A stretch of DNA of 42,451 nt from a virus. The stretch is from IMG/VR virus record IMGVR_UViG_3300048927_000100, positions 1 to 42,451 of that record, one strand, 5' to 3'. The first letter of the stretch is position 1; each line of letters begins with the position of its first letter. Below are positions 29,766 to 41,405 of this stretch, piece after piece. The notes beneath the pieces were generated by a model. That model saw nothing but the letters and a program-made list of their open reading frames with translations, was not told where the DNA came from and ran no database searches. Made by a program: the position numbers and the translations under genes.

Positions 29766-29805
29766 GGGAACGCTGGGGTATTCGTGTTCCCCTGCGTTCC
29801 CCTGC
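29766..29805. promoter_or_regulatory. Direct and inverted repeats upstream of the CII-like gene
   Basis: Two tandem copies of GTTCCCCTGC (29786-29805) and an inverted GGGAACGC (29766-29773) lie between the cro-side terminator and the CII-like start. They may be a protein-binding or antitermination (nut-like) site. The role is inferred. Confidence 0.35.
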
Positions 29806-29818
29806 TTGGTCGTGAAAA

Positions 29819-29847
29819 TGGCCGCTCACCGAAACGGAGAGCGGCCA
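29819..29847 (-). terminator. Intrinsic terminator after the Cro-like gene
   Basis: On the minus strand the 9-bp stem TGGCCGCTC / GAGCGGCCA, with a structured 11-nt loop, is followed by TTTTCACG. It is 34 nt after the Cro-like stop, equivalent to lambda tR1, and implies antitermination for expression of the ~30-kb leftward operon. Confidence 0.7.
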
Positions 29848-29881
29848 GATGGAAATTCAGATCAGGGACGAAGCGGCCATG

Positions 29882-30088
29882 TCAGGCGGCCTTCTTGCGG
29901 CGGGGCGCGGTGGCGGGCTTAAACAAGTCGGGCCGCTTCTGTGCGGCCCGCCAGCACCACGCATCAGGCAGTTGGTCCTGGTCCCCGCGACCTGTCATCG
30001 ACTGGCGCGGGAGGCCGAGGAAGCGGGCAAACTCGGCGTTCGTTTCGATGCCGAGGGCGGACTTTGCTTGGGCCAAGGTCGGGTTCAT
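29882..30088 (-). CDS. Cro-like repressor, 68 aa
   Basis: The product MNPTLAQAKSALGIETNAEF... contains an HTH (NAEFARFLGLPRQSMTGRG) and a basic C-terminus (APRRKKAA). It is divergent from the CI-like gene and the first gene of the leftward operon. Its start codon lies only 7 nt from the predicted -10 hexamer, so the mRNA may be leaderless. Confidence 0.75.
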   Translation of the reverse strand: MNPTLAQAKSALGIETNAEFARFLGLPRQSMTGRGDQDQLPDAWCWRAAQKRPDLFKPATAPRRKKAA

Positions 30089-30094
30089 TGCGAT

Positions 30095-30124
30095 AGTAAA
30101 TCATCGGTTACCAATGACAGTCAA
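30095..30124 (-). promoter_or_regulatory. Promoter of the leftward (cro) operon
   Basis: On the minus strand TTGACT (30124-30119) and TTTACT (30100-30095) are separated by 18 nt. Operator O1 covers the -10 and O2 the -35. The predicted start falls at about the A of the cro ATG. The same hexamers, spacing and operator geometry occur at 31485-31514. Confidence 0.65.
30096..30111. promoter_or_regulatory. Operator O1 (16 bp)
   Basis: GTAAATCATCGGTTAC: GTAA/TTAC half-sites with an 8-bp centre. It overlaps the -10 of the leftward promoter. It matches the reverse complement of O4 at 15 of 16 positions, and is the first of three sites at an exact 24-bp pitch. Confidence 0.7.
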
Positions 30125-30135
30125 CCATGATTTCC
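30120..30135. promoter_or_regulatory. Operator O2 (16 bp)
   Basis: GTCAACCATGATTTCC; its reverse complement matches O1 at 12 of 16 positions. It starts 24 bp after O1 and covers the -35 of the leftward promoter. Confidence 0.6.
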
Positions 30136-30143
30136 ACATTTCC

Positions 30144-30159
30144 GTCAATCATTCGTTAC
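30144..30159. promoter_or_regulatory. Operator O3 (16 bp)
   Basis: GTCAATCATTCGTTAC; it matches O1 at 13 of 16 positions, starts 24 bp after O2 and ends directly before the CI-like ATG. Binding here would block cI transcription or translation, as OR3 does in lambda. Confidence 0.65.
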
Positions 30160-30654
30160 ATGAGCATTGGCGCCCGACTAGAGGAGCTGCGGAAGGCCTC
30201 GCAGTTGACCCAGCAACAGATGGCTGACATCGTCGGGACGACGAAGCAGTACGTCGGTCGCCTGGAAAAAGGCCTGAACCAGAACCCGAACGGAGTGTTC
30301 CTGACCGGATGGGCACGCCACTTTGCTGTTAGCCCGCGGTGGCTGTCGTCCGGTGAAGGCCCCCGATACGCGGCCGAGCGCACGTCGTCTCAGTCAGCGC
30401 GACCCGACTTCGGCAAGCTGGCCGCGTCGGTTCTTCTTCTTCGTCACTATCTGGACTTCACGGGCGAACCGTCTGAGTGGATCAGCGACGAAGTTCTATT
30501 GGAAACGGCGTTCGAGGTGGTCGAGGAGTTCGGCGCAGAAGTCCGCGCGGACAACGTGTTCGACCTGACAAAGGTTCTGGCAAAGAAAATCAGGGGTGGA
30601 GCGGATGCACAAGGACAGCAGGTTCGAGGAACTCGCACAGCGGTTGGCAGTTAG
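30160..30654 (+). CDS. CI-like repressor without peptidase domain, 164 aa
   Basis: The product MSIGARLEELRKASQLTQQQ... has an XRE-type helix-turn-helix (residues ~5-55; TQQQMADIVGTTKQYVGRLE). The C-terminal part is short and helical (LLRHYLDFTGEPSEW, AFEVVEEFGAEV) and lacks the S24 Ser/Lys autoprotease seen in LexA-like repressors. ATG 30160 has no ribosome-binding site and abuts operator O3, so a leaderless mRNA is likely; an in-frame ATG at 30127 lies inside O2. It is the probable prophage repressor acting on the five 16-bp sites. Confidence 0.8.
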   Translation: MSIGARLEELRKASQLTQQQMADIVGTTKQYVGRLEKGLNQNPNGVFLTGWARHFAVSPRWLSSGEGPRYAAERTSSQSARPDFGKLAASVLLLRHYLDFTGEPSEWISDEVLLETAFEVVEEFGAEVRADNVFDLTKVLAKKIRGGADAQGQQVRGTRTAVGS

Positions 30655-30964
30655 GACCGCACAGCTTCGCGGGGAGGCTCAGGAGGCTCGCCCTGCCCTG
30701 CGGCTGGTTGCGGAACAGGCCCCGCAAGGCATGGACTTCATCCTGCGAGAGTCCCATTGCCGGATGATCCGTCACTTCCGCCGCCGCTGGGGCGCTTCAA
30801 TGCAGCTGCTCATCGACCAGGCGTGTTTCGGCTACACCGGCATCGAGGCCCTTCCCGATGACGATCTCATCCAGCTCCATCGCGACCTGGAGCGTGCCCA
30901 AGACTGTATGCGCGACGGCGTTTCCTTCGAAGATGCCGGACTTCTTCGCTCACGATACGGGTGA
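30605..30964 (+). CDS. Hypothetical protein cotranscribed with the repressor, 119 aa
   Basis: It overlaps the repressor 3' end by 50 nt, with AGGGG upstream of ATG 30605 (GTG 30596 is an alternative). The product is helical and Arg/Gln-rich (FEELAQRLAVRTAQLRGEAQ), with a central RMIRHFRRRW basic patch and an acidic second half. No family recognised. Being in the lysogenic transcript, it may be made in the lysogen. Confidence 0.65.
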   Translation: MHKDSRFEELAQRLAVRTAQLRGEAQEARPALRLVAEQAPQGMDFILRESHCRMIRHFRRRWGASMQLLIDQACFGYTGIEALPDDDLIQLHRDLERAQDCMRDGVSFEDAGLLRSRYG

Positions 30965-30967
30965 ACC

Positions 30968-31429
30968 ATGGCTCTGAACGCGCTTCTATTTGCGGCGGTA
31001 ATCGCCGGCGGCCCCGTCATCACTGACGAGGATAGAGCCACCATTGAGCAAGCCACTCGCACTGCGGACGCCTTCGCCTACTGCGCTGGGGTATGGGACT
31101 TCTTTGCCGCAGCTGAATCAGCTGGTGATCGCCCCGCTTCCGCAGAGCAGTTCCGCAGCATGGGCAATGGAGCGCAAACTGCCGCCCTCTGGACACACGC
31201 CAAGGCCCACTTGGCTTCTGGCGGGAAGCCAGCCCGTTATGGTGCATGGTTGCCACTCGTCACGCCGAGGCGGACGGCGGCGAACCTGCAACTGCATGCG
31301 GCACTGGAGCATGGTGACACTGACCGCGCCAAGCGTGAGGGTGAGACCTGCCGGGGGATGCTGGAGTCGCAGCAGATGGCGATTGACTACTTGCGCCAAG
31401 ACCAGGTCAATCTCGAAGTAGGCCCGTAA
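30968..31429 (+). CDS. Predicted exported protein, 153 aa
   Basis: The first ~15 residues (MALNALLFAAVIAGG) look like a short signal peptide or membrane anchor, although no basic n-region is present. The rest is helical, with two Cys (FAYCAGVWDFF and GETCRGM) that could form a disulphide in the periplasm. It follows the repressor and the 119-aa gene by 3 nt. Likely lysogen-expressed; function unknown. Confidence 0.65.
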   Translation: MALNALLFAAVIAGGPVITDEDRATIEQATRTADAFAYCAGVWDFFAAAESAGDRPASAEQFRSMGNGAQTAALWTHAKAHLASGGKPARYGAWLPLVTPRRTAANLQLHAALEHGDTDRAKREGETCRGMLESQQMAIDYLRQDQVNLEVGP

Positions 31430-31473
31430 TCTGAACGGAATCTCACGTGTTCAGAAATAAAATCGCCTTTTGA

Positions 31474-31489
31474 GTAACTTTTAATTGAC
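31474..31489. promoter_or_regulatory. Operator O5 (16 bp) upstream of the DGR operon
   Basis: GTAACTTTTAATTGAC; GTAA/TGAC half-sites, 11 of 16 matches to O1 in reverse orientation. It lies exactly 24 bp before O4 and overlaps the -35 of the rightward promoter. Confidence 0.5.
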
Positions 31490-31514
31490 CGCTGCAAGTA
31501 ACCGATGGTTTACT
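31485..31514 (+). promoter_or_regulatory. Promoter of the rightward DGR operon
   Basis: TTGACC (31485-31490) and TTTACT (31509-31514) are separated by 18 nt, with predicted start near 31521. O5 covers the -35 and O4 the -10, the same geometry as the cro promoter. It would drive 31568 onward, including both DGR targets, recT and the RT. Confidence 0.65.
31498..31513. promoter_or_regulatory. Operator O4 (16 bp) upstream of the DGR operon
   Basis: GTAACCGATGGTTTAC; its reverse complement matches O1 at 15 of 16 positions. It sits over the -10 of the rightward promoter. This near-identity ties the DGR operon to the CI/Cro switch 1.4 kb away. Confidence 0.7.
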
Positions 31515-31567
31515 AGCTCCGTCGCCCCAAGACACCCTCACAACGAGGCGGGGCCGGAGATCGAGTC

Positions 31568-31762
31568 ATGGAGCACCTGCTCGCAGTCATCGTAGTTACC
31601 GGTTGCAGCCTGGCCGTCGTGGGTGGCCTGGCAATCTTCTTCAGCCGCGCCAAGGGTCTGAAAAACCTCTGCGCCGGCCAGTCTGACCGAGAATCCGCCT
31701 TCCTTGCCACCGAAATGGCCGCCAGCTACGACGCTGCGCGCCATGTCCGCGAGGAGGCCTGA
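31568..31762 (+). CDS. Small single-TM protein, first gene of the DGR operon
   Basis: The 64-aa product MEHLLAVIVVTGCSLAVVGG... has one N-terminal hydrophobic helix (residues 4-25) and a charged C-terminal half. A GGAG lies ~10 nt before the ATG. It ends 3 nt before the first DGR target start. It could be a membrane anchor or partner of that target, which has no membrane segment of its own; that is speculative. Confidence 0.65.
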   Translation: MEHLLAVIVVTGCSLAVVGGLAIFFSRAKGLKNLCAGQSDRESAFLATEMAASYDAARHVREEA

Positions 31763-31765
31763 GCC

Positions 31766-32170
31766 ATGAACGCACAGACCACCCAGCGTTTCACCCAGAC
31801 CCACGGCGGCGTGCTGACCGTCATCGATTCGACCACCGGCCTCGAGTGGATCGCCAAGCCGCTGGCTGGCGAATTCGAACACCAGAAGGCCATCGACGCC
31901 TGCGCCGCGCTGGACTTCGCCGGCCACAAGGATTGGCGCCTGCCGACCCGCGCCGAGCTGCTCACCCTGGTGGACATCACCCGCCACGAGCCGGCTATCG
32001 ACACCGAATCTTTCCCCGACTTCCCGAAGCGCGGCTGGTTCTGGACCTCCGACCTGTGCGCCTGGTCTTCGGCGGCCGCGTGGCTCGTCAATTTCGGCCT
32101 CGGCCTCGTCAGCCTCAACCACCGCTACGGCTACGGGATCGCGTTGGCCGTGCGTCGTGCCGGTCAGTAA
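31766..32170 (+). CDS. DGR variable protein 2 (DUF1566/lectin-fold), distal target
   Basis: The 134-aa product has a DUF1566-like body (STTGLEWIAK, DWRLPTRAELLTLVD, WFWTSDL) and a C-terminal variable region from about residue 98 (AWSSAAAWLVNF...YGIALAVRRAGQ), encoded by VR2. In this fold, related to the C-type lectin-like Mtd family, the variable residues form a ligand-binding face. No signal peptide, anchor or fibre domain is present. It lies 5.6 kb upstream of the template. What it binds is unknown. Confidence 0.85.
   Translation: MNAQTTQRFTQTHGGVLTVIDSTTGLEWIAKPLAGEFEHQKAIDACAALDFAGHKDWRLPTRAELLTLVDITRHEPAIDTESFPDFPKRGWFWTSDLCAWSSAAAWLVNFGLGLVSLNHRYGYGIALAVRRAGQ
32059..32164 (+). repeat. 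DGR variable repeat VR2
   Basis: 106 bp align without gaps to TR 37764-37869. There are 16 differences: 15 are at TR adenines (of 23 in the variable core) and one is a T to A change at 32138. The GC-rich 3' end (GCGTTGGCCGTGCGTCGTGC) is invariant and is the initiation region; directly after it VR2 has C where TR has G. Confidence 0.9.
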
Positions 32171-32198
32171 TTGGGCTTTCTGACATAGGGGTCACGAC

Positions 32199-32495
32199 AT
32201 GCCAGCCGACTACCAGATTGCCCGTAACGACGACGCTCCGGAGCAGAACGACGAGGCCTACCAGTTCGCCTGCGACCAGGTCGCGGCCGAGCTAGAGGCC
32301 GAGGCCGAAACCGCCGAGATGGTTTCAGCGCTGAGCGGCTCCCGGCATGTCGTGCACTTCCTGATGTCGCAGAAGGTTCCACCACACCTACTGCCCTATG
32401 CCCGTGACCTCGCTGAGTTGGTCCGCAACATCTCCGACCGTGTGGATGGGCAGATGCAGACGTTGAGCAGCTCCGACATGAGGGACGCCGCATGA
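32199..32495 (+). CDS. Hypothetical acidic phage protein, 98 aa
   Basis: The product MPADYQIARNDDAPEQNDEA... is acidic and helical, with a Glu/Ala-rich first half and a conserved-looking MVSALSGSRHVVHFLMSQKV in the middle. It starts 28 nt after the DGR target, and its end overlaps the next start. No family recognised. Confidence 0.65.
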   Translation: MPADYQIARNDDAPEQNDEAYQFACDQVAAELEAEAETAEMVSALSGSRHVVHFLMSQKVPPHLLPYARDLAELVRNISDRVDGQMQTLSSSDMRDAA

Positions 32496-32683
32496 ACACC
32501 TTCGAGAACACCCGGTTCCGCCAGCTGGTTCAGAAGCGCGCCGAGAGTTTGGGCTACTGCCCGATGACTGTCCGCCAGATCGTGCGGGTAGCCGTTGCCA
32601 CCGGCGTCGGCACGCTCGCGGCGCAGGCTCACCAGGTGGTGCCCTACCCCGCCAGCTCGGCGACATGCGGGGATGCGGCATGA
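32492..32683 (+). CDS. Hypothetical small protein, 63 aa
   Basis: The ATG overlaps the upstream stop (ATGA). The product MNTFENTRFRQLVQKRAESL... contains MTVRQIVRVAVATGVGTLAA, possibly a weak HTH or amphipathic helix. Function unknown. Confidence 0.55.
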   Translation: MNTFENTRFRQLVQKRAESLGYCPMTVRQIVRVAVATGVGTLAAQAHQVVPYPASSATCGDAA

Positions 32684-32883
32684 ACACAAATGAGAACGAG
32701 CCGATGCACCCCAGCGAAACGGCCATGGCCCGCTATCACGGCTTGACCAAGCGCGAGTACTTCGCCGGGCTGGCGATGCAGGGACTGTGCGCAAGGAATG
32801 ACGGCGAGCTTTCACACAACCGAGCCGCATATGCGGTGGAACACGCCGATGACCTTCTCGCCGCGCTGGAGAAATCCAAATGA
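32680..32883 (+). CDS. Hypothetical small protein, 67 aa
   Basis: The ATG overlaps the preceding stop (ATGA). The product has YHGLTKREYFAGLAMQGLCA and ends AYAVEHADDLLAALEKSK. This YFAxLAMQG..A...AD.LLxxL pattern is widespread in small phage proteins of unknown function. Confidence 0.7.
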   Translation: MNTNENEPMHPSETAMARYHGLTKREYFAGLAMQGLCARNDGELSHNRAAYAVEHADDLLAALEKSK

Positions 32884-32993
32884 ACCCCCGCCGCGAAGCC
32901 CTGATCGACCTGTCTCTCTGGTGCGCGTTCGGCTTGACCTTCATGGCGCTCGGCGCAGTGGCCTCCCTATTGGTGCAAGGAGTTGTGTGGTGA
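32880..32993 (+). CDS. Very small TM protein, 37 aa
   Basis: ATG 32880 and TGA 32991-32993 overlap both neighbours (ATGA and GTGA). The product MNPRREALIDLSLWCAFGLT and the following hydrophobic residues form one transmembrane helix. Function unknown; support comes from coupling. Confidence 0.5.
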   Translation: MNPRREALIDLSLWCAFGLTFMALGAVASLLVQGVVW

Positions 32994-33181
32994 GACGCGA
33001 GCGAAAGGAAACCGAGCGTGACCGATTCGAATTGTGGCTGAGGCGACAAGGTTTGATTCCTAAGCACAAGGCGTGGAACTGGGGAACCTATACCGACCCC
33101 GCTGTCGCAAACGCCTGGGCGGCTTGGAAGGCCTCAGCGAGATCGGCAGTTCGCCGCGAAAGGTCGAGGATCGCCAAATGA
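32990..33181 (+). CDS. Small basic protein, 63 aa
   Basis: A GTG start overlaps the upstream stop (GTGA), and the stop overlaps the next ATG. The product is basic and Trp-rich (RDRFELWLRRQGLIPKHKAW, AVANAWAAWKASARSA). The pattern 'FE.W......' ending '..AW.AWKA' occurs in small phage proteins of unknown role. Confidence 0.6.
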   Translation: MRRERKETERDRFELWLRRQGLIPKHKAWNWGTYTDPAVANAWAAWKASARSAVRRERSRIAK

Positions 33182-33315
33182 CCCCACTCACCGAACTGGC
33201 CCGCCTCTTCGCCGACATCCCGAGGCCTGAGCCGCTGGCACCCATTGACCCGATCGACACCGACGAAGCAGTGAATGGCGTTTGCGCCCAAGGAGATGAC
33301 GAATGCGCCATCTGA
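33178..33315 (+). CDS. Very small acidic protein, 45 aa
   Basis: ATG 33178 overlaps the stop of the preceding ORF. The product MTPLTELARLFADIPRPEPL... is acidic and Pro-rich. Its 3' end overlaps the following gene by 13 nt. Function unknown. Confidence 0.45.
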   Translation: MTPLTELARLFADIPRPEPLAPIDPIDTDEAVNGVCAQGDDECAI

Positions 33316-33560
33316 CCGCTGCCTTCCTCTGCGCCCTGGTCGCGTCGTTCTGCGCCGCCGTGGTGCTGCGCGCCCTGATCACCAATGCCGACAGTTTCAT
33401 CCTGATCGGCGGTATTGGCGCCCTGTTCTTCGCCTACCGCTGCTGGGCCGAGGTCCGCCAAGCGTGGCCGGCCTTCACTCGCCACTTGGCTCACCGGCGT
33501 GCCATGCGCCGCGGCGCGCCGCTGGTCCGCATCAATCTGCCCAAGGAAGACGTGCAATGA
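33303..33560 (+). CDS. Small membrane protein, 85 aa
   Basis: Two hydrophobic helices (residues ~4-24 and ~31-46; FLCALVASFCAAVVLRALI and FILIGGIGALFFAYRCW) are followed by a basic C-terminal tail. AAGGAGATGACG lies before the ATG. The stop overlaps the next start. Function unknown. Confidence 0.65.
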   Translation: MRHLTAAFLCALVASFCAAVVLRALITNADSFILIGGIGALFFAYRCWAEVRQAWPAFTRHLAHRRAMRRGAPLVRINLPKEDVQ

Positions 33561-34513
33561 GTGACCTGATCCCCATCGAATCCGTGAACGCGGTCGAAGT
33601 GTTCACCGGAAACGGCTTGGACGACCTGCTGGCGCGCATCCGCGCCGAGGCGATCACGCTGGTGCCTGACCTCTCCACCGTGGCAAGCCGAAAGGACATC
33701 GCATCGCAGGCCTACAAGGTGGCCCGCTCAAAGACCGCCATCGACGAGGCTGGCAAAGCGCTGGTGGCCGACCTGAAGAAGCAGACCGGTGACATCGATG
33801 CGGCCCGCAAGAAGGCCAGGGACACGCTGGACGCACTGCGCGATGAGGTCCGCAAGCCGCTGACCGACTGGGAAGCCGAGCAGGAGCGCATCGAACGCGA
33901 GCGGATCGAGGCCGAAGAGCGCGCCAAGGCGGAAGCCGAAGCCCAGCGCATCGCCGACCTGGAGCGCCGCGAGGCTGAGTTGCGCGCCAAGGAAGAAGCG
34001 ATTCGTGCCGCCGAGGAGGCTGAGCGCCAGCGCGTCGCCGCTGAGCAGGCCGAGGCAGCCCGAATCGAGCGGGAGGCCAAGCTGCAGCGGGACGCGGAAG
34101 AACGCGCCAAGCGCGAGGCACAGGAAGCGATTGCCCGGGCCGAGCGCGAAGCAGCTGCTGCAAAAGAACAATCCGCCCGTGATGCCGCTGCCGCCGAAGC
34201 CCGCGAGAAGGCCGCCGCCGAGAAGGCCAAACGCGACCAAGAGGAGGCCGTTCGACAGGTAGAGCAGAAGGCGCAGCACGAGGCTGAGCAGCGCGAGCGT
34301 GCCCGCTTGGCTGCCGAAGAGAAGGCCAAGGCCGAGGCGAAGCGCCAGGCAGATGAAGAAGCCCGACAGGCCGCCAACAAGGCCCACCGCCGCCGGATCA
34401 ACGTCGCCGCCGTCGAAGCGCTGACCGCCGAAGGCATCGACGCGGACGGGGCCAAGGCCGTCGTCACCGCCATTGCGCTGGGCAAGATCCCGGCCGTTTC
34501 CATCAAGTACTGA
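33557..34513 (+). CDS. Coiled-coil protein upstream of RecT, 318 aa
   Basis: After a globular N-terminus (MSDLIPIESVNAVEVFTGNG ... RKDIASQAYKVARSKTAIDE), most of the protein (residues ~100-280) is a single charged Glu/Ala/Arg coiled coil, superficially TolA-like. A short C-terminal domain (VAAVEALTAEGIDADGAKAV) ends it. Genes of this layout commonly precede phage recT and exonuclease genes. A DNA-end-protection or annealing-partner role is inferred only from context. Confidence 0.72.
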   Translation: MSDLIPIESVNAVEVFTGNGLDDLLARIRAEAITLVPDLSTVASRKDIASQAYKVARSKTAIDEAGKALVADLKKQTGDIDAARKKARDTLDALRDEVRKPLTDWEAEQERIERERIEAEERAKAEAEAQRIADLERREAELRAKEEAIRAAEEAERQRVAAEQAEAARIEREAKLQRDAEERAKREAQEAIARAEREAAAAKEQSARDAAAAEAREKAAAEKAKRDQEEAVRQVEQKAQHEAEQRERARLAAEEKAKAEAKRQADEEARQAANKAHRRRINVAAVEALTAEGIDADGAKAVVTAIALGKIPAVSIKY

Positions 34514-34520
34514 GGCAGAT

Positions 34521-35432
34521 ATGACCACCCAGCTTATGACCATCGAAGACTCGGTGTACGGCACGAAGGACGTCTTCGCGTCGGTGCTGACCGATCGGTC
34601 CATAAACTTCGACCGCGAGTGCGAGTTTGCCCTGCAAGCCCTCTACAGCAACGATTTCGCGATGAAGATCGCGCTACAGAACCGCGCCTCGGTCACTGCC
34701 GCTGTCGTGAACATCGCCGCCATCGGGATCAGCCTGAACCCGGCGAAGAAGCAGGCCTACCTGGTGCCGCGCGACGGCAAAATCTGCCTCGACATCAGCT
34801 ACATGGGCCTGATGGACCTTGCCATCGACTCCGGGTCAATCCGCTGGGGCCAAGCCGAGCTGGTCTATGAGGCGGACACCTTCGCCCTGAACGGGGTCGA
34901 CAAGGAGCCTACCCATTCTCGCAACCCGTTTGGTCGTGATCGCGGGGCAATCGTTGGCGCCTATGTAGTTGTGAAGACGGCTGACGGCGATTACCTCACC
35001 GACTGCATGAGCCGCGAGGAAATCGACGGAATCATGGCCCGCTCCCAGTCGGTAAAGTCCGGCAAGTCATCGCCGTGGAAGACCGATTGGAACGAAATGG
35101 CAAAGAAGACTGTCGTCAAGCGCGCCTACAAGTACTGGCCGAAGACAGATCGACTGGACCAGGCGATTCACCACCTCAACACCGATTCTGGCGAAGGGCT
35201 GGCAACCTTGGTCGGTCAGCCGGTGCCACGTGGCGCTCTACCGCCGCCGGCAGATAGCCCCGAACGTGATGCGCTGTACGCCCGTTTGCAGGACATCGCC
35301 ACGACCGGGCTTGAAGCCTACGGCACGGCATGGAAGGGCCTGACCAAGGACGAGCGGACGATGATCGGGCAAGCGGCGCACGAGGGGCTGAAAGCCCAGG
35401 CTGAGAAGGCTGGCGCCGTGGAGGTGGAGTGA
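34521..35432 (+). CDS. recT: RecT-family single-strand annealing protein
   Basis: The 303-aa product shows the RecT signature (FALQALYSNDFAMKIALQNR, then AAIGISLNPAKKQAYLVPRD, and ICLDISYMGLMDLAIDSGSI) and the C-terminal segment WNEMAKKTVVKRAYKYWPKT. It anneals complementary single strands made by the neighbouring exonuclease. ATG 34521 follows GAGG. Its stop overlaps the exonuclease start (TGATG). Confidence 0.92.
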   Translation: MTTQLMTIEDSVYGTKDVFASVLTDRSINFDRECEFALQALYSNDFAMKIALQNRASVTAAVVNIAAIGISLNPAKKQAYLVPRDGKICLDISYMGLMDLAIDSGSIRWGQAELVYEADTFALNGVDKEPTHSRNPFGRDRGAIVGAYVVVKTADGDYLTDCMSREEIDGIMARSQSVKSGKSSPWKTDWNEMAKKTVVKRAYKYWPKTDRLDQAIHHLNTDSGEGLATLVGQPVPRGALPPPADSPERDALYARLQDIATTGLEAYGTAWKGLTKDERTMIGQAAHEGLKAQAEKAGAVEVE

Positions 35433-36202
35433 TGCGCGTCATCTCCTGCGAACAAGGCAGCCCCAAGTGGCACCGCGCGCGCGCCGGCGTCATCACTGCC
35501 AGCATGTTTGGCGTCGCCCGAAAGAAGGTAGGCGGCCTCACCGAGCAGCAGCAGACCTACGTCGATGCAGTGCTTTCCGGCCTGGGCGACAAGGAAGCGC
35601 AGGCGAAGGCCGGCTACAAGGCGGCGCCGAAATCGGAAACGGTCGCCAAGGCTATCGCCGGCCTGCCGGTTGGTGATTTCTCCGAGGAATCGAAGAACTA
35701 CGCCTTCCGTCTTGCGATCGAGCGTATCAACGGCGAGCCGCTGGATGAGGGCTTCGAGACCTACGCCATGCGTCGCGGCCATGAGCTGGAGCCGATGGCC
35801 CGGGCAGAGCACGAGGTCCAGTCCGGCCTGATCGTGAAGCGCGCTGGGTTCATCGTCAGCGATGACGGCGTGTTCGGGGCATCCGCAGACGGCCTGATCA
35901 ACGACAACAGCGGGGCGGAATACAAGTGCTTCATCGACCCGTCCAGGCTGCGTGCCTTCCACATCGACAACGACGCCAGCGACATCTTTGAGCAGGTACA
36001 GGGCTGCATGTGGCTGGCCGAGCGCGAGGAATGGCACGTCGGCTTGTACTGCCCCGCCCTCGTCCACTGCGGCCGGCACCTGTGGTGGCGCGTGTTCCAG
36101 CGCGACGACGCGTTAATCGCCGCCATGGAGAAAGACCTGCGCGCTTTCGCTGACCTGGTCGACACCTTCCACCGCCAGCTGCAGGAGCCGCTGGCGGCCT
36201 GA
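35432..36202 (+). CDS. YqaJ-type (lambda Exo-like) exonuclease
   Basis: The 256-aa product matches the YqaJ/lambda exonuclease PD-(D/E)XK family: SPKWHRARAGVITASMFG at the start, YAMRRGHELEPMARAEHE in the middle, then VFGASADGLI (catalytic Asp) and AEYKC (E-x-K), and a Gln-containing helix EQVQGCMWLAERE. It digests 5' ends of duplex DNA to feed RecT. A GTG one codon earlier is an alternative start. Confidence 0.9.
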   Translation: MRVISCEQGSPKWHRARAGVITASMFGVARKKVGGLTEQQQTYVDAVLSGLGDKEAQAKAGYKAAPKSETVAKAIAGLPVGDFSEESKNYAFRLAIERINGEPLDEGFETYAMRRGHELEPMARAEHEVQSGLIVKRAGFIVSDDGVFGASADGLINDNSGAEYKCFIDPSRLRAFHIDNDASDIFEQVQGCMWLAEREEWHVGLYCPALVHCGRHLWWRVFQRDDALIAAMEKDLRAFADLVDTFHRQLQEPLAA

Positions 36203-36285
36203 TCCCCTGCTGCCCGCTCACCACGGGCAACAACACCCGCGCCGGCCGGCTTCCCAACGCCGGCACCCACACACAGGAGTCCAGC
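36203..36285 (+). other. Intergenic segment with two hairpins
   Basis: This 83-bp gap contains a 6-bp stem-loop (36211-36229, TGCCCG/CGGGCA) and a GCCGGC stem-loop (36245-36264), then ACAGGAGT as ribosome-binding site of the next gene. No T-tract follows. It may uncouple exonuclease translation from the DGR section. Confidence 0.35.
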
Positions 36286-36471
36286 ATGAAAGGCCAGCTC
36301 GACATCTTCGACCATGACCCGGCCAGATTGGCGGCGAAGCACCGCGAGGCGGCGCAACACGCCTTGAGTGCTGGCGATCAGGGCTACTTCACCGCCCGTG
36401 AGCGCTACGAGTTCCTGACCGCCGAGGCCGAGCGCCTGGAGCGTCAGGCGGGGATCAGGGCGGCTGCATGA
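36286..36471 (+). CDS. Small helical protein, 61 aa
   Basis: The product MKGQLDIFDHDPARLAAKHR... is helical and charged, with YFTARERYEFLTAEAERLER at the C-terminal side. CAGGAG is well placed. The stop overlaps the next ATG. Function unknown. Confidence 0.65.
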   Translation: MKGQLDIFDHDPARLAAKHREAAQHALSAGDQGYFTARERYEFLTAEAERLERQAGIRAAA

Positions 36472-36797
36472 GCAAGCGGCATCCCTTCGTCTGTCCGAAA
36501 CCGCCGATCGGTCGGCCGATCCATTACCCGCGCGACGTGCGCACCGTCCGCGACCACCTCCGCCGGCACCTGCGCGAGGAGGGCCGGCAGATGCAGCACC
36601 TGGCCGCAGCGTGGGGCGTCTCGAAGCACACGGTCTATGCGCTGTTCAACGTGGACCGGCCGCTGCCGCCGCAGCACGTCGAGGCATCCATCGCCCACCT
36701 GGGCCTGGACGACTTCGACGCCAACGAATTGAGGCTGCTGGCTGCCCGCGAGGCTGGCTGGCAGATCGACCCGAAGTACCTGATCACCACCCCGTAA
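36468..36797 (+). CDS. HTH (Cro/XRE-like) DNA-binding protein, 109 aa
   Basis: The product contains an HTH (GRQMQHLAAAWGVSKHTVYA, about residues 39-58) followed by a helical section (VEASIAHLGLDDFDANELRL). The ATG overlaps the upstream stop. It lies 16 nt before the proximal DGR target and may regulate the DGR section. The target sites are unknown. Confidence 0.65.
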   Translation: MSKRHPFVCPKPPIGRPIHYPRDVRTVRDHLRRHLREEGRQMQHLAAAWGVSKHTVYALFNVDRPLPPQHVEASIAHLGLDDFDANELRLLAAREAGWQIDPKYLITTP

Positions 36798-36813
36798 CCA
36801 CCAGGAGCACCAC

Positions 36814-37239
36814 ATGAGCAACCCGAAGTTCATCAAGATCGGCGCCGATGGCGCGCAGCTGCCCGACGACGCCACCGGCCATGTCGCCGTCTTCCTGCCC
36901 GACCACGGCCTGACCTTCAGCGCCACCAGCGTGGTGGCCACTGACTTGCCGCACGAGAAGTGCGAGGCGGCGTGCAAGGCCCTGACCCTAGCCGGCCACA
37001 GCGATTGGGACCTGCCGACCATCGAGGAGTTGCAGCTGCTCATCGACCGCAGCCGCTACAGCCCGGCCATCAACACCGACTTCTTCCAGGACATCCGGAA
37101 CGACTGGTACTGGACGAAAACCCCGGCCGCCTGGTCTTCGGCGGCCGCGTGGAGCGTCTATTTCAGCTACGGCGGCGTCAACTACGGCCCCCGCAGCTAC
37201 GACGGGTTCGCGTTGGCCGTGCGTCGTGCCGGTCAGTGA
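36814..37239 (+). CDS. DGR variable protein 1 (DUF1566/lectin-fold), proximal target
   Basis: The 141-aa product has an N-terminal beta region (FIKIGADGAQLPDDATGHVA), a DUF1566 core (DWDLPTIEELQLLIDRSRYS, WYWTKT) and the variable C-terminus from about residue 104 (AAWSSAAAWSVYF...GFALAVRRAGQ). It is a paralogue of the distal target, with a different N-terminal part. Twelve codons of the variable region correspond to AAY or CAC codons in the template. AGGAGCACC precedes the ATG. The Avd gene starts 25 nt downstream. The ligand is unknown. Confidence 0.88.
   Translation: MSNPKFIKIGADGAQLPDDATGHVAVFLPDHGLTFSATSVVATDLPHEKCEAACKALTLAGHSDWDLPTIEELQLLIDRSRYSPAINTDFFQDIRNDWYWTKTPAAWSSAAAWSVYFSYGGVNYGPRSYDGFALAVRRAGQ
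37124..37233 (+). repeat. DGR variable repeat VR1
   Basis: 110 bp align without gaps to TR 37760-37869 with 13 differences, every one at a template adenine (A to G, T or C). The last ~30 bp are identical to TR, and the next base is C in VR and G in TR, an IMH versus IMH* type distinction. The 18 bp after the initiation region match those after VR2 at 14 positions but not those after TR. Confidence 0.93.
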
Positions 37240-37264
37240 TTTGATTTTCTGCTGAGGCCTATCG

Positions 37265-37705
37265 ATGACTTCCCGCTTCCAGCTCCCGCCCATCCTCAAA
37301 GCGTGCGAACGGTTGCTGCTCGAAATTGAGCAGGCCGTCCGGCAGTTCCCGCGCTACCACCGCTACATGATCGGGTCGGACCTGCGCCGCCAGATGATGT
37401 CGGTGAGCAGCTCGGCGAACCGTGCGTGGCGTGACCGCGCCAACCAGTCGAAGTGGGTCGGGCAGCTGGTGTGGGACATCGATGACCTCAAACAGCACCT
37501 GCAGGCCGCCAAGCTGCTCCAGGCGTTCGGCAGCTTCCGGCAGTTCGAGATGCTGATCCGCCTGGCTGAAGAGCTGGGCGCGCAGGCCGGCGGTTGGCGC
37601 CGTCGGCTGGCAAACCCCCAAGCCCAGAATGCGCAAGCCAATGGCGTCGCGCAGCGTGGCCAGAAACTGAGTACCCGTGTCGCCTCTGAGGGGGCCAATT
37701 CATGA
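37265..37705 (+). CDS. avd: Avd-like DGR accessory protein
   Basis: The 146-aa product fits the accessory variability determinant: a basic four-helix bundle with PILKACERLLLEIEQAVRQF, YMIGSDLRRQMMSVSSSANR and VWDIDDLKQHLQAAKLLQAF, and a basic C-terminal tail. In BPP-1 the Avd pentamer binds the reverse transcriptase and template RNA. GAGG lies ~9 nt upstream of the ATG. Its TGA overlaps the RT ATG (ATGA), so the two are translationally coupled. Confidence 0.85.
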   Translation: MTSRFQLPPILKACERLLLEIEQAVRQFPRYHRYMIGSDLRRQMMSVSSSANRAWRDRANQSKWVGQLVWDIDDLKQHLQAAKLLQAFGSFRQFEMLIRLAEELGAQAGGWRRRLANPQAQNAQANGVAQRGQKLSTRVASEGANS

Positions 37706-39063
37706 CGAAGCTTCGCTACCAGCACGGATGCGCTGACGGGTCGAAAGTACATGGGGAGGCGGCCGCCTGGTCTTCGGCGGCCGCGTGGAACGTCAATTTC
37801 AACAACGGCAACGTCAACAACAACCACCGCAACAACAACGGGTTCGCGTTGGCCGTGCGTCGTGCCGGTGAGTTTCAGGGGGAAGTCTCGCTGCAGGATT
37901 TGTACCGGGCATGGCGGCGCGCGCGCCGCCAGAAGGTGCCTAGCTTCAACCAGCTCCGTTTCGACGGGCGTTGGTCCGATGGGCTGCTGCGGCTCGAACG
38001 TGAGCTGGTCGGCGGCACCTGGTCGCCGCGCCCCTCCACCTGCTTCATCGCCACCCGGCCCAAGGCGCGCGAGATTCACGCGCCGGACTTCGCCGACCGC
38101 GTGGTGCACCACTGGCTGGTTCCCCAGCTGGAGGCACTGTGGGAGCCGACCTTCATCCACGACAGCTACGCCAACCGGAAAGGCCGCGGCAGCCACGCCG
38201 CCGTCCGCCGGGCTCAGGAATTCAGCCGGCAGGTGCATTCGGGCCAGGGTGGCGGCTACTACCTGCAGCTGGACGTGGCCAACTTCTTCAACAGCATTCA
38301 CCGGTCGACGCTGTGGGGGATGCTCCGCAAGCGCATGCAGCGCCGCGGGCTGTCCGCTACGGCGCAGAAGGCCACGCACGCCCTCCTCCGCCGGTCGCCG
38401 CTGCATGCCGGCGTCCAGTACCGCGCCACCGAGGCCGAGCTGGCGCAGGTGCCGCCACACAAGCGTCTGGTCAACGCGCCGGCCGGGCGCGGCTTGCCGA
38501 TCGGCAACCTGTCCAGCCAGTTCTTCGCCAACGTCTATCTGGACGCCCTCGACCAGTTCGTGAAGCACGAGCTCAAGGCAGAGCGCTACCTGCGCTACGT
38601 CGATGACTTCGTGCTGTTCCACCACGACCGCGAGCAGCTGGCAGCCTGGCGCGACCAGATCGAGGTCTTCCTGGCCGACCGCCTAGGGCTGCGCCTCAAG
38701 GCTGAGCAGCACCTGCGCCGGTTGACCGATGGCCTCGACTTCCTCGGCTACGTGATCTACCCCACGCATACCCTCGCCCGTCAGCGGGTAGTCGGCCACG
38801 TACGGCAGGCTCTCGCGGAATGGGAAGGCGTGCACGTCGAGGGCAACAAGCTGCGCGGGCGCCCGTCGGCATTCCGTGACCTTCGCACGCGGCTTGCCAG
38901 CTACCAGGGCCACCTGCGGCACGCGAACAGCCACCACCTTCTGGCCTCGCTACACCAACGCTTTCCGTGGCTGGCCTGCGCTGCCACGCCGCGGCGCTTC
39001 AGCCATCGAGCCGAGCGCCAGACCATTTCCATTAATTTCAGGAAGGAGCCGACCAATGGCTGA
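37702..39063 (+). CDS. DGR reverse transcriptase with in-frame TR extension
   Basis: The 453-aa frame starts at ATG 37702 with GAGGGGG upstream. Residues ~20-56 are the template repeat translated (Asn-rich: NVNFNNGNVNNNHRNNN). The RT proper begins near residue 64 (LQDLYRAWRRARRQK). Motifs are REIHAPDFADRVVHHWL (~123-139), YLQLDVANFF with catalytic Asp191, the DGR-type IGNLSSQ (267-273) and YVDDF with Asp301/302. This RT class copies TR RNA with adenine-directed errors for transfer to the VRs. Translation could instead start downstream at TTG (Leu67) or inside the TR, leaving the TR non-coding. Confidence 0.93.
   Translation: MTKLRYQHGCADGSKVHGEAAAWSSAAAWNVNFNNGNVNNNHRNNNGFALAVRRAGEFQGEVSLQDLYRAWRRARRQKVPSFNQLRFDGRWSDGLLRLERELVGGTWSPRPSTCFIATRPKAREIHAPDFADRVVHHWLVPQLEALWEPTFIHDSYANRKGRGSHAAVRRAQEFSRQVHSGQGGGYYLQLDVANFFNSIHRSTLWGMLRKRMQRRGLSATAQKATHALLRRSPLHAGVQYRATEAELAQVPPHKRLVNAPAGRGLPIGNLSSQFFANVYLDALDQFVKHELKAERYLRYVDDFVLFHHDREQLAAWRDQIEVFLADRLGLRLKAEQHLRRLTDGLDFLGYVIYPTHTLARQRVVGHVRQALAEWEGVHVEGNKLRGRPSAFRDLRTRLASYQGHLRHANSHHLLASLHQRFPWLACAATPRRFSHRAERQTISINFRKEPTNG
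37759..37784 (+). repeat. Inverted repeat at the 5' end of the TR
   Basis: GCGGCCGCC (37759-37767) and GGCGGCCGC (37776-37784) form a perfect 9-bp stem with an 8-nt loop. VR1 retains 8 bp of it and VR2 only 4 bp, because the left arm falls outside VR2 homology. The stem contains no adenine. Confidence 0.7.
37760..37869 (+). repeat. DGR template repeat (TR)
   Basis: 110 bp with 23 adenines in the variable core, arranged as ten AAC, one AAT and one CAC codon, which cannot mutate to a stop codon. Both variable repeats align without gaps. The TR starts 58 nt into the RT reading frame and is in the same frame as the target proteins. After 23 free positions 4^23 (about 7 x 10^13) DNA variants are possible. 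Confidence 0.93.
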
Positions 39064-39274
39064 TATCGAACAGCAGGCCCGTGAACGCATCTTCCAAGAG
39101 CAGTCCACACATCACGTCTACCGGGGATCGTGCGGATCGCTGCCCTGCTACTGCTGGGCCACGGATGACCACGTGATCGGCGATGAGGTGAAGCGCGACG
39201 CGGACCAGTCCACCACCCTGGCCACCGTCAGGCCGCCCAGTGACCTGCGCACCAGGCTGCGGGAGGACCGGTGA
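39056..39274 (+). CDS. Small Cys-containing protein, 72 aa
   Basis: GGAAGGAG precedes ATG 39056, which overlaps the RT end by 8 nt. The product has GSCGSLPCYC in the middle, possibly a small metal site, and a charged C-terminus. The stop overlaps the methyltransferase start (GTGA). Function unknown. Confidence 0.6.
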   Translation: MADIEQQARERIFQEQSTHHVYRGSCGSLPCYCWATDDHVIGDEVKRDADQSTTLATVRPPSDLRTRLREDR

Positions 39275-40045
39275 ACTACTACAACGAGTTCGAACCTTAC
39301 GCCGCGCAGTGGCTGCGCAATCTCATTGCCGAGGGCCTGATCCCCGCCGGCGACGTCGACACCAGGAGCATCACCGATGTTGAGCCCCAAGACCTTGCAG
39401 GCTACCGACAGTGCCACTTCTTCGCCGGAATTGGCGGGTGGCCTCTTGCCCTGCAATTGGCCGGCTGGCCTGACGATAGACCTGTTTGGACCGGATCCTG
39501 CCCCTGCCAGCCCTTCAGTAAGGCCGGCGGGAAGCTCGGCTTCGACGATGACCGACACCTCTGGCCAACCTGGGGGGGGGCTCATCAGCAAGTGCCGCCC
39601 TACAACGATCTTTGGAGAGCAGGTTGCGCCAGCGGTTAAACACGGGTGGCTCGACTTGGTCGCAGGGGACCTGGAGAGAGAAGGCTACGCCTTCGCATCG
39701 ACGGTATTGCGAGCATCAAGTGTCGGTTCCCCTCATGACCGCAGGCGGCTCTTCTTCGTTGCCCACGCCGACGGCCAGGGAGTGGAGGGACTTGTCCAAG
39801 GCTTCAACTCTAACGTCGCTCGACCGTGGGGATGGCGTGGGGAAGAGGATATGCGCGCTATCGCCGCAGCTCCGTTCGAGCCCGGAGATCGTTGGCCTCA
39901 ACCCCTCCTTCGCCGGGTGGCTGATGGGATACCCGGCCGAGTGGGACGCCTGCGCGCCTACGGCAATGCCATCGTCCCGCAAGTCGCGGCCGAAGTGATC
40001 GGCGCCTACATGGATTGCTACCCCGATCCCGCGCCTACGAACTGA
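39271..40045 (+). pseudogene. DNA cytosine (C5) methyltransferase, frameshifted at a G9 tract
   Basis: Motif I (HFFAGIGGW, ~49-57) and motif IV (GSCPCQPFS, catalytic Cys79) are in the frame starting at GTG 39271. After a run of nine G (39572-39580) the family sequence continues in the +1 frame: ISKCRPTTIFGEQV (motif VI), DRRRLFFVAHAD (motif VIII) and LRAYGNAIVPQVAAE (motif X), ending at 40045. Eight G would restore one ORF. As read, the first frame ends at 39639 and lacks motifs VI-X. Either it is an inactive allele, a phase-variable OFF state, or a homopolymer sequencing error. It would protect phage DNA by methylation. Confidence 0.8.
39572..39580 (+). repeat. Poly-G (G9) tract inside the methyltransferase
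   Basis: Nine consecutive G follow T39571. This is the exact site where the protein family continues in another frame. Such tracts slip during replication and are a known phase-variation mechanism in methyltransferase genes. Confidence 0.8.
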
Positions 40046-40058
40046 CAGGAGACCCGTT

Positions 40059-40394
40059 ATGGGAGCCGCTGAAAAGCTAGACATCGTCGGAAAGGACTGG
40101 CTCACCGTGGATGAGGCCGCGCACTACTGTGGGGTGTCCAGGAGCCAGTTCGACTCAAACATCGCGGAATACGGGATCGAGCCGCGCAATTTCATGGGCA
40201 AGAAACTCTACGAGAAAGCCGCCCTCTACTCTGTAATCTACGGTTCCCGACAATGGTCAAGGTCACAATCTTCTGGCGGGACGGCGCCGCGTACCTCAAC
40301 TGGCGCGAGGGCGGCAAGCGAAGCCGCGTCGCCATTGGTCGCGTCGGCCCACGAGAAGCTGAGGGCATACGAGCGGCGAAAGAAGCAGAACTGA
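40059..40394 (+). CDS. Excisionase-like HTH protein, 111 aa
   Basis: The product has KDWLTVDEAAHYCGVSRSQF, a MerR/Xis-type HTH, followed by a short wing (IEPRNFMGKKLYEKAALYSV). GGAGACC lies upstream. It is directly before the integrase and overlaps its start by 142 nt; the Ser/Ala-rich C-terminal third is probably overprinted. It likely directs excision, or regulates the integrase. Confidence 0.7.
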   Translation: MGAAEKLDIVGKDWLTVDEAAHYCGVSRSQFDSNIAEYGIEPRNFMGKKLYEKAALYSVIYGSRQWSRSQSSGGTAPRTSTGARAASEAASPLVASAHEKLRAYERRKKQN

Positions 40395-41242
40395 CGCACG
40401 GGGTACGCATCCTGCCCCGGCTCCCCAGCGTCAGGGATTTCCTGGAGGCGTACCTGGACTGGTACAAGGCCGAGCACCCCACCACGCACGGCAAGGCAAA
40501 GAGCGAGGTTCGCCTGTTCATTGCCCGATTCGGGCACCGGCCTATCGACACGCTGCGGCCCATGGAGATGGAGTCCTACAAGTCGGACCGGCTCACCAAG
40601 GACAGGGTTGCGCCTGAGACGGTGGGCAAGGAAGTTCGGCGGCTGCAGGCGGCATTTCGGCGCGGGGTGAAGTGGAAGGAGCTGGACTTCAATCCGCTCG
40701 AAGAGATTCAGGCGCCGCGCGGGGTTCGCAGCGTCGCGGTGCGGTTCTACGACCGGGCGGCGATGCGCAGGCTCTACCGGGCCAATCCTGAGCGCGCCGC
40801 GCTGTGGCTGTTCATGGCGCACACGGGGCTGCGCCGCGGCGAGCTGGTCGGCCTGGGCAAGGAATCGGTCACGGGGCGCCGGCTCAAAGTCGAGAGCGAC
40901 CCGGACGAGGATGGCCAGGGGCGCACGAAGTCCGGCAAGTGGCGCGAGGTGCCGCTGAACCGTTATGCGCGCTGGGCACTTCGCCACCTACCCGACCCGC
41001 TGGTGGCCGTGCACAAGGACACGGTGTCCGACTGGTTCGCCTCAGATGCGAAGCGGGCGGGGATCGGCGGCAGCCTTCACCGGCTACGGCATACCTTCTG
41101 CGCCCACATGGTGATGGCCGGCGTTCCGCTGCGCCGCGTACAGCTGCTCGCCGGGCACGCGGACTACGCGACCACCGAGAAGTACTATGCTCACCTGACG
41201 CCCGAGGGTGACGACGGGGCGGTGGCCAAGCTCAGGTATTGA
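40253..41242 (+). CDS. int: Tyrosine recombinase integrase
   Basis: The 329-aa product has an N-terminal arm-type DNA-binding beta domain (TIFWRDGAAYLNWREGGKR), a SAM-like core-binding domain (~58-150) and a catalytic domain with TGLRRGEL (Arg194), HRLRH (His276, Arg279), GHADY (His302) and TTEKYYAHL (Tyr312). It would integrate the phage at the tRNA-Arg 3' end located 87 bp downstream. The start overlaps the excisionase-like gene. Confidence 0.93.
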   Translation: MVKVTIFWRDGAAYLNWREGGKRSRVAIGRVGPREAEGIRAAKEAELTHGVRILPRLPSVRDFLEAYLDWYKAEHPTTHGKAKSEVRLFIARFGHRPIDTLRPMEMESYKSDRLTKDRVAPETVGKEVRRLQAAFRRGVKWKELDFNPLEEIQAPRGVRSVAVRFYDRAAMRRLYRANPERAALWLFMAHTGLRRGELVGLGKESVTGRRLKVESDPDEDGQGRTKSGKWREVPLNRYARWALRHLPDPLVAVHKDTVSDWFASDAKRAGIGGSLHRLRHTFCAHMVMAGVPLRRVQLLAGHADYATTEKYYAHLTPEGDDGAVAKLRY

Positions 41243-41243
41243 G

Positions 41244-41261
41244 CTGGGACCACTGGGACCA
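41244..41261 (+). repeat. Tandem 9-bp repeat near the attachment site
   Basis: CTGGGACCA occurs twice in direct tandem right after the integrase stop, about 70 bp from the tRNA 3' end. It may be an arm-type integrase binding site. The att core is expected in the tRNA 3' part, but the second copy lies outside the window. Confidence 0.4.
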
Positions 41262-41328
41262 AACCCTGTGGATATGCGGGAAACAGTGGGAAATGCCGTT
41301 GGTGCAGCACGGCCTAAACCATTGATTT

Positions 41329-41405
41329 TGGTGACCCCGGCCCGATTCGAACGGGCGACCTTCCCCTTAGGAGGGGGACGCTCTATCCAGCTGAGCTACG
41401 GGGCC
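41329..41405 (-). tRNA. tRNA-Arg (anticodon CCT), prophage attachment site
   Basis: On the minus strand 77 nt fold as a tRNA: acceptor GGCCCCG / CGGGGTC, D-arm GCTC..GAGC, anticodon stem TCCCC / GGGGA with loop CTCCTAA (anticodon CCT), T-arm GCCCG TTCGAAT CGGGC, and an encoded CCA. Its 3' end faces the integrase, so this is the likely integration site; the phage restores the 3' end. Confidence 0.93.

Follow-up and report, generated by a model that had tools for sequence, protein, structure and literature searches.

A lambda-like pair of operator clusters predicted to place the DGR operon of a Stenotrophomonas-type prophage under its lysogeny repressor

The window analyzed here, a stretch of 42,451 nucleotides of viral DNA, contains a cI-like repressor gene (30160-30654, plus strand) that is divergent from a cro-like gene (29882-30088, minus strand), the first gene of a leftward early operon. 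The 164-aa repressor has an N-terminal HTH_3 domain (E 1e-9), and the solved sequences closest to this HTH are those of the 434 repressor. No S24 peptidase domain was found in the window CI by domain search. Therefore, our claim from the sequence is limited to a lambda-like layout and does not extend to the lambda CI family. The cro-like gene has a conserved position, its product matching Pfam Phage_CI_repr under the cut-off (E 0.088). The same operon also includes a CII-like gene (a weak match) and replication genes.

Two genes separate cI from the rightward early operon: g2 (30605-30964, plus strand; phrog_27415), which overlaps the end of cI, and g3 (30968-31429, plus strand). The overlap with cI is also seen for the g2 homologs of loci L022, L023, L031, L036, and L040. 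An S24 domain was detected in 18 of the 31 repressors of the survey set described below; g2 homologs follow none of these 18 and follow 6 of the 31, all six without an S24 active-site motif by eye. The predicted structure of g2, of fair quality, gave no meaningful fold match (best E 1.7), and a sequence comparison with solved structures gave no convincing relative (one match at E 0.88). As the window CI has no S24 domain, the cotranscribed g2 is a candidate for the function that inactivates the repressor, and it may be an antirepressor or a co-repressor that replaces SOS cleavage.

Five 16-bp sites flank these genes in two clusters. The first cluster, OR, lies between cI and cro and consists of O1 (GTAAATCATCGGTTAC; 30096-30111, minus strand), which covers the -10 of the PR promoter, O2 (GTCAACCATGATTTCC; 30120-30135, minus strand), which covers its -35, and O3 (GTCAATCATTCGTTAC; 30144-30159, plus strand), which abuts the cI start codon. 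The second cluster, OL, follows g3 and consists of O4 (GTAACTTTTAATTGAC; 31474-31489, plus strand) over the -35 and O5 (GTAACCGATGGTTTAC; 31498-31513, plus strand) over the -10 of the PL promoter. The initial annotation had proposed these five starts, at 30096, 30120, 30144, 31474, and 31498, with an exact pitch of 24 bp; on direct reading the coordinates are exact, and the pitch between site starts is true inside both clusters. It had also described O4 as the reverse complement of O1 at 15 of 16 positions. A match of this quality does exist, but its partner is the fifth site, O5 (31498); O4 (31474) resembles the reverse complement of O1 at only 11 of 16 positions, and its symmetry is only partial.

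The two clusters cover promoters of the same layout, again as proposed. By pattern match, PR, the cro promoter, reads TTGACT, 18 nt, TTTACT on the minus strand (30124 to 30095), and PL reads TTGACC, 18 nt, TTTACT on the plus strand (31485-31514). TTGAC-N19-TTTACT occurs only twice in the window, with both strands searched, and these occurrences are PR and PL. The register is also common to O2/O1 on PR and O4/O5 on PL, with the -35 ending one site and the -10 ending the next. A strict sigma-70 promoter scan of 29800-40300 returned no promoters and missed PL itself, because both -10 hexamers (TTTACT) are without an A at position 2. The cI start codon directly adjoins O3, with no Shine-Dalgarno sequence by eye, and in 12 of the 13 phages that carry the window type of repressor the PR -10 is followed after 6 nt by the start codon of cro (after 7 nt in the other one); both mRNAs look leaderless from these positions.

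A symmetric weight matrix was built from the OR sites of these 13 phages alone, with OL never included. When the whole window was searched, as the initial annotation had suggested, the matrix picked exactly these five sites in 42,451 bases. O1 to O5 scored 23.7, 21.5, 21.0, 16.8, and 23.2 bits, respectively, O4 being the weakest site, and the next best position in the window scored 9.3 bits. A chance likeness or a general sigma-70 promoter pattern could be considered, given that the motif is partly promoter sequence (TTGAC, TTTACT) and that AT-rich stretches look alike, but we regard this as extremely improbable. The repeated geometry had been judged hard to get by chance, and indeed a 24-bp pair scoring as well as O4-O5 was found in 0 of 200 first-order Markov windows. 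In a motif-free test, in which the best 15-mer shared between AT-rich stretches was compared with 60 dinucleotide shuffles, the OR/OL match of the window was reached by none of the 60. Moreover, the sites are conserved in the 13 phages while their spacers have diverged: the 8-bp spacer between O1 and O2 is different in all 13, and the operator sites are nearly invariant, O1 being kept in 13/13.

Relatives with this repressor are present both in viral contigs and in genomes. When viral contigs were searched with cI, 12 loci were obtained; the five sites are kept at the same pitch in ten of them (71-97% identity), three of these ten being nearly the window's own phage. The two loci without the five sites, L014 and L015, align with the HTH over just 36 and 28 residues. 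In addition, four loci from Stenotrophomonas genomes (L082-L085) keep the five sites, two of their CIs being 48% and 43% identical to that of the window over the matched stretch. The window-type CIs in alignment A4 are 40-97% identical to the window CI. The five sites and the promoter layout are common to the 13 window-type phages; the spacer measures 18 bp at both promoters in 12 of them, and one PL has 17 by pattern match. The distance from cI to OL is variable, with PL located 840-1344 nt past the cI start across window-type phages, so the OL cluster moves as a unit with the PL promoter.

It is improbable that the OL sites serve mainly for looping with OR, strengthening cI autoregulation, with operon repression as a secondary effect. 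The two clusters, 1.35 kb apart and equal in pitch, are arranged as bridging by a repressor oligomer needs, and lambda is a precedent for repressor oligomers that bridge OL and OR. However, in the 13 phages O4 covers the PL -35 and O5 the PL -10, in the register that O2 and O1 have on PR, and looping needs none of this.

The operon downstream of PL contains a first DGR target, a recombinase, an exonuclease, small genes, a second target, Avd, a template repeat (TR), and a reverse transcriptase (RT). Target 1 (31766-32170, plus strand) is an Lcl_C domain protein with a VR at about 32059-32164 (VR1). It is preceded by the first gene of the operon (31568-31762, plus strand), encoding a 64-aa protein with an N-terminus that is hydrophobic by eye and that might anchor or export target 1. 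Next come a RecT-like annealing protein (34521-35432, plus strand; start taken from the script's gene model) and a recombination exonuclease (35432-36202, plus strand) with phage exonuclease/RecE-like matches. Target 2 (36814-37239, plus strand), also an Lcl_C domain protein, has its VR at about 37124-37233 (VR2). The Avd accessory protein (37265-37705, plus strand) matches phrog_3206 (E 2e-18) and scores 32.4 bits against Pfam bAvd, under the 40-bit cut-off. The TR (37760-37869, plus strand) is located inside the beginning of the long RT reading frame (37702-39063, plus strand; RVT_1, phrog_1423), and the true RT start is probably downstream of it. The RT was assigned to the DGR type because of the TR/VR and Avd context.

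VR1 and VR2 are the ends of the two Lcl_C proteins, and in the 70 bases of each that align best with the TR every difference falls on a TR adenine; past this stretch VR1 has one T/A mismatch by eye. A scan of both strands at the same stringency found no further VRs in the 42-kb window. The TR, two adenine-varied VRs, Avd, and RT together indicate that the DGR in the PL operon is genuine.

Other features of this region were noted. A hairpin in the PL leader (31517-31559, plus strand; -20.1 kcal/mol, z -2.1) pairs with the GGAG before the first gene, and its CTCCG/CGGAG in the window corresponds to CTCCA/TGGAG in L006, L017, and L018, a compensatory change. Hairpins after OL were also seen by eye in L022, L026, L036, and L044. 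Downstream of the RT, cytosine methylase homology at 39271-40045 is split over two frames (the first and second half of phrog_363), and this gene looks frame-broken or misassembled. The end of the integrase gene adjoins a tRNA-Arg (CCT) gene at 41242-41405; this junction is the likely attachment site, and the PAP2 gene beyond it is probable host DNA.

The position of RecT and the exonuclease between the two targets first suggested a RecT-DGR coupling, with the annealing protein aiding cDNA integration. This idea was rejected, as RecT is present in few RT-bearing records: a search with the RecT family alone gave 5 matches, 3 of them above the cut-off, among 37 RT-bearing records, and the pairing is not general. 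No report of DGRs combined with RecT recombineering was found in the open-licence literature.

An RT family search of 12 whole records gave four matches, namely the near-twin L006 and L017, L018, and L019. No RT match was obtained in L007-L013, seven records that have the same cI and keep OL, nor in the 21.8-kb fragment of L004; the RT-less records of the same immunity are contigs of viruses, two of which measure just 15.7 and 19.8 kb, and the lack of an RT is not proven for every one. A DGR-specific operator was ruled out on the basis of these seven records, and since same-cI records keep OL without the RT, OL did not arise for the DGR. In the records examined, the window immunity type thus appears usually to drive PL operons that are without a DGR. 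The initial annotation had tied the second cluster to the DGR operon: the cluster is indeed at the promoter of that operon, but it serves the whole early operon and is not DGR-specific.

The reverse situation is provided by L017, L018, and L019, which have nearly the same DGR operon as the window (identity of 94-96% for the RT and of 84-87% for the first target) and unrelated repressors. The repressors of L018 and L019 are of the S24 type, for which SOS induction should turn the DGR on, whereas in the window type it may not. In each of these phages OL matches the phage's own OR and is unlike the window motif. The own OR motifs that flank the DGR-operon promoter, as consensus sequences by eye, are ATGCATNNATGCAT in L017, TATYAGTGSCRCTA in L018, and ATTAAACNNNNTGTTTAAT in L019. 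A 32-base leader, beginning at 31523 in the window, directly follows OL in all three with 0-1 mismatches; it was not found in L007-L013 with up to 10 mismatches allowed. These comparisons indicate an exchange of the immunity module whose boundary lies between the operator and the leader and in which OR and OL were replaced together.

The survey of RT loci covered the window and its RT relatives to L060, 47 loci in total, and compared AT-rich segments within 8.5 kb upstream of the RT. No testable pair was obtained for 5 of the 47; the shared motif was above all 60 shuffles in 36 of the 42 tested loci. The six that failed the shuffle test were L038 (reached by 1/60), L048, L049, L050, L053, and L054. 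L056 passes the shuffles with a pair that is unlike OR/OL and was left out of later counts; with the duplicates L042 and L058 also dropped and L038 retained, 34 loci were kept. Most of the 34 have a divergent cro/repressor pair around one cluster and a second cluster before the DGR operon. The site pitch in the survey loci is mostly 22-27 bp, TTGAC lies within OL in 22 of 30 loci, and the repressors of the 34 loci form at least 18 HTH clusters. The survey RT loci have one to three VRs each, all on the RT strand in the fetched stretches (up to ~21 kb). Every VR detected in the 34 OR/OL loci is located between OL and the RT on the same strand, wherever OL is placed. A crude gene finder placed a minus-strand gene between OL and the RT in three of them (L024, L025, and L041).

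For 30 loci, with three near-duplicates and one weak case left out, the sum of the matches between each OR and its own OL was above that of all 100,000 random pairings; this figure is inflated, as the regions were picked by their own-pair score, a bias from which the shuffle tests are free. Among twelve further genome regions (L175-L186), eight were above all 40 shuffles, L176 and L178 were reached by 2/40 and L184 by 1/40, and no pair was obtained for L175; by eye, L175-L178 do show sites of the OR type. The repressors of L175-L179 and L181 were observed to join the C-terminal part of the window CI to another HTH and are natural domain swaps. In L179 and L181, which pass the shuffles, OR and OL share a matching motif that is different from the window's. 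This bears on whether Cro alone, or a regulator of the host, could bind the sites instead of CI, which we consider very improbable. In lambda-like phages Cro and CI use the same operators, which would allow it, but the operators differ with the repressor HTH even where the C-terminal part is common (L181). The best 15-base OR matches have a mean of 10.2 and a maximum of 13 between pairs with different HTHs and are 10-15 between pairs with the same HTH, a trend and not a rule.

Taken as a whole, the two clusters are very probably the OR and OL of a lambda-like Stenotrophomonas-type prophage, in which CI would shut PR and PL and hence the DGR. The initial annotation had predicted coordinated repression of the leftward and DGR operons, and the way in which OR and OL change together with the repressor across immunity types supports this prediction well. 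CI (30160-30654) would bind O1-O3, turning off PR, with cro, the CII-like gene, and the replication genes, and controlling its own promoter. It would also bind O4-O5 and turn off PL, the sole promoter seen for the rightward operon. The DGR and its targets would thus be silent in the lysogen. Upon infection or induction, PL would be on and the DGR, its targets, and the recombination functions would be expressed together, with PR driving replication; loss of CI would open PR and PL at the same time. We infer binding by CI (and Cro), the role of PL as sole promoter of the DGR, when mutagenesis takes place, and any OL-OR looping.

A variant of this model keeps OL as described and gives the DGR genes (36.8-39 kb) a repressor-independent promoter, with low activity in the lysogen that is boosted by PL. 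The RT is located ~6.4 kb from PL, and hankyphage lysogen cultures are already DGR-active, with repressor silencing inducing the activity (PMC12135933). We consider this variant unlikely, however: there is no consensus promoter in 29800-40300, in a scan that also misses PL; no plus-strand terminator-like site was found after 30432 in a scan to 40300 and hence none between PL and the RT; and target 1 begins 252 bp after OL. A weaker promoter inside the operon may still serve avd-RT.

The OL/OR layout of lambda is textbook knowledge, and the window resembles it in having cI and cro divergent with three operators between them and a second cluster past cI and two genes (compare rexAB). As in lambda, this second cluster is at the promoter of an early operon with recombination genes, and the operators lie on the -35 and -10. 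There are also differences, as two OL sites were found here vs three in lambda, the 164-aa repressor lacks an S24 domain for cleavage, cro seems to be leaderless too, and the early operon carries the DGR and its targets.

The hankyphage is related in terms of regulation. According to the available part of its description, when the CI-like repressor RepCHP is silenced, phage genes are expressed more strongly and DGR activity is induced (PMC12135933). In contrast, it is a Mu-like transposable Bacteroides phage with a tail-fibre target and global derepression (PMC12135933); an operator map of the DGR operon was not found in that part, while the operators of the window are directly at the DGR-operon promoter. 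The Bordetella phage BPP-1 shares the TR, VR, Avd, and RT and the adenine-directed variation, as covered in the available portion of PMC8144416, but it varies a virion receptor-binding protein, whereas both targets of the window are in an early operon. The same portion of that 2021 DGR survey by Roux et al. catalogs viral and non-structural targets with C-lectin folds, which the Lcl_C targets of the window may resemble, and presents control of RT activity as one of two undecided explanations for differing activity (PMC8144416). Words beginning with lysogen, temperate, repressor, or early are absent from the available text of that survey (PMC8144416). In a reconstituted DGR, efficiency was reported, in the part available, to depend on replication, replication direction, and expression (PMC12875486). 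Together with the hankyphage results (PMC12135933), this fits a DGR that is expressed at replication, both articles dealing with other systems. No title or abstract on phage repressor operators at a DGR operon was found in the open-licence literature, which is not proof of absence. What is already known is the OL/OR layout and repressor control of a phage DGR, with the hankyphage as the one functional precedent; what is new, as read from the genomes, is the operator-level and immunity-independent placement of DGRs in predicted PL operons.

For the control of DGR activity, these prophages would offer a direct switch: one repressor and two clusters, of which OL is located at the DGR operon. Ready-made controls come from the phages in which the immunity module has been swapped naturally while the DGR operon has stayed nearly the same. 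Should expression of the targets and the mutator be confined to the time after derepression, variants would be made during the burst, at high replication. The role that a hypervariable protein made early and apart from the virion genes has for a phage also becomes of interest. More tentatively, and with somewhat less than even confidence, we propose that the DGR is standard PL-operon cargo in many Stenotrophomonas-type prophages, with hypermutation in the lytic or infection phase, in time with phage replication, and with small, early, probably non-virion targets. If this is true, the targets would be binding proteins of hypervariable sequence and not tail tips, and whichever repressor a prophage has, its operators would end up at the DGR operon.
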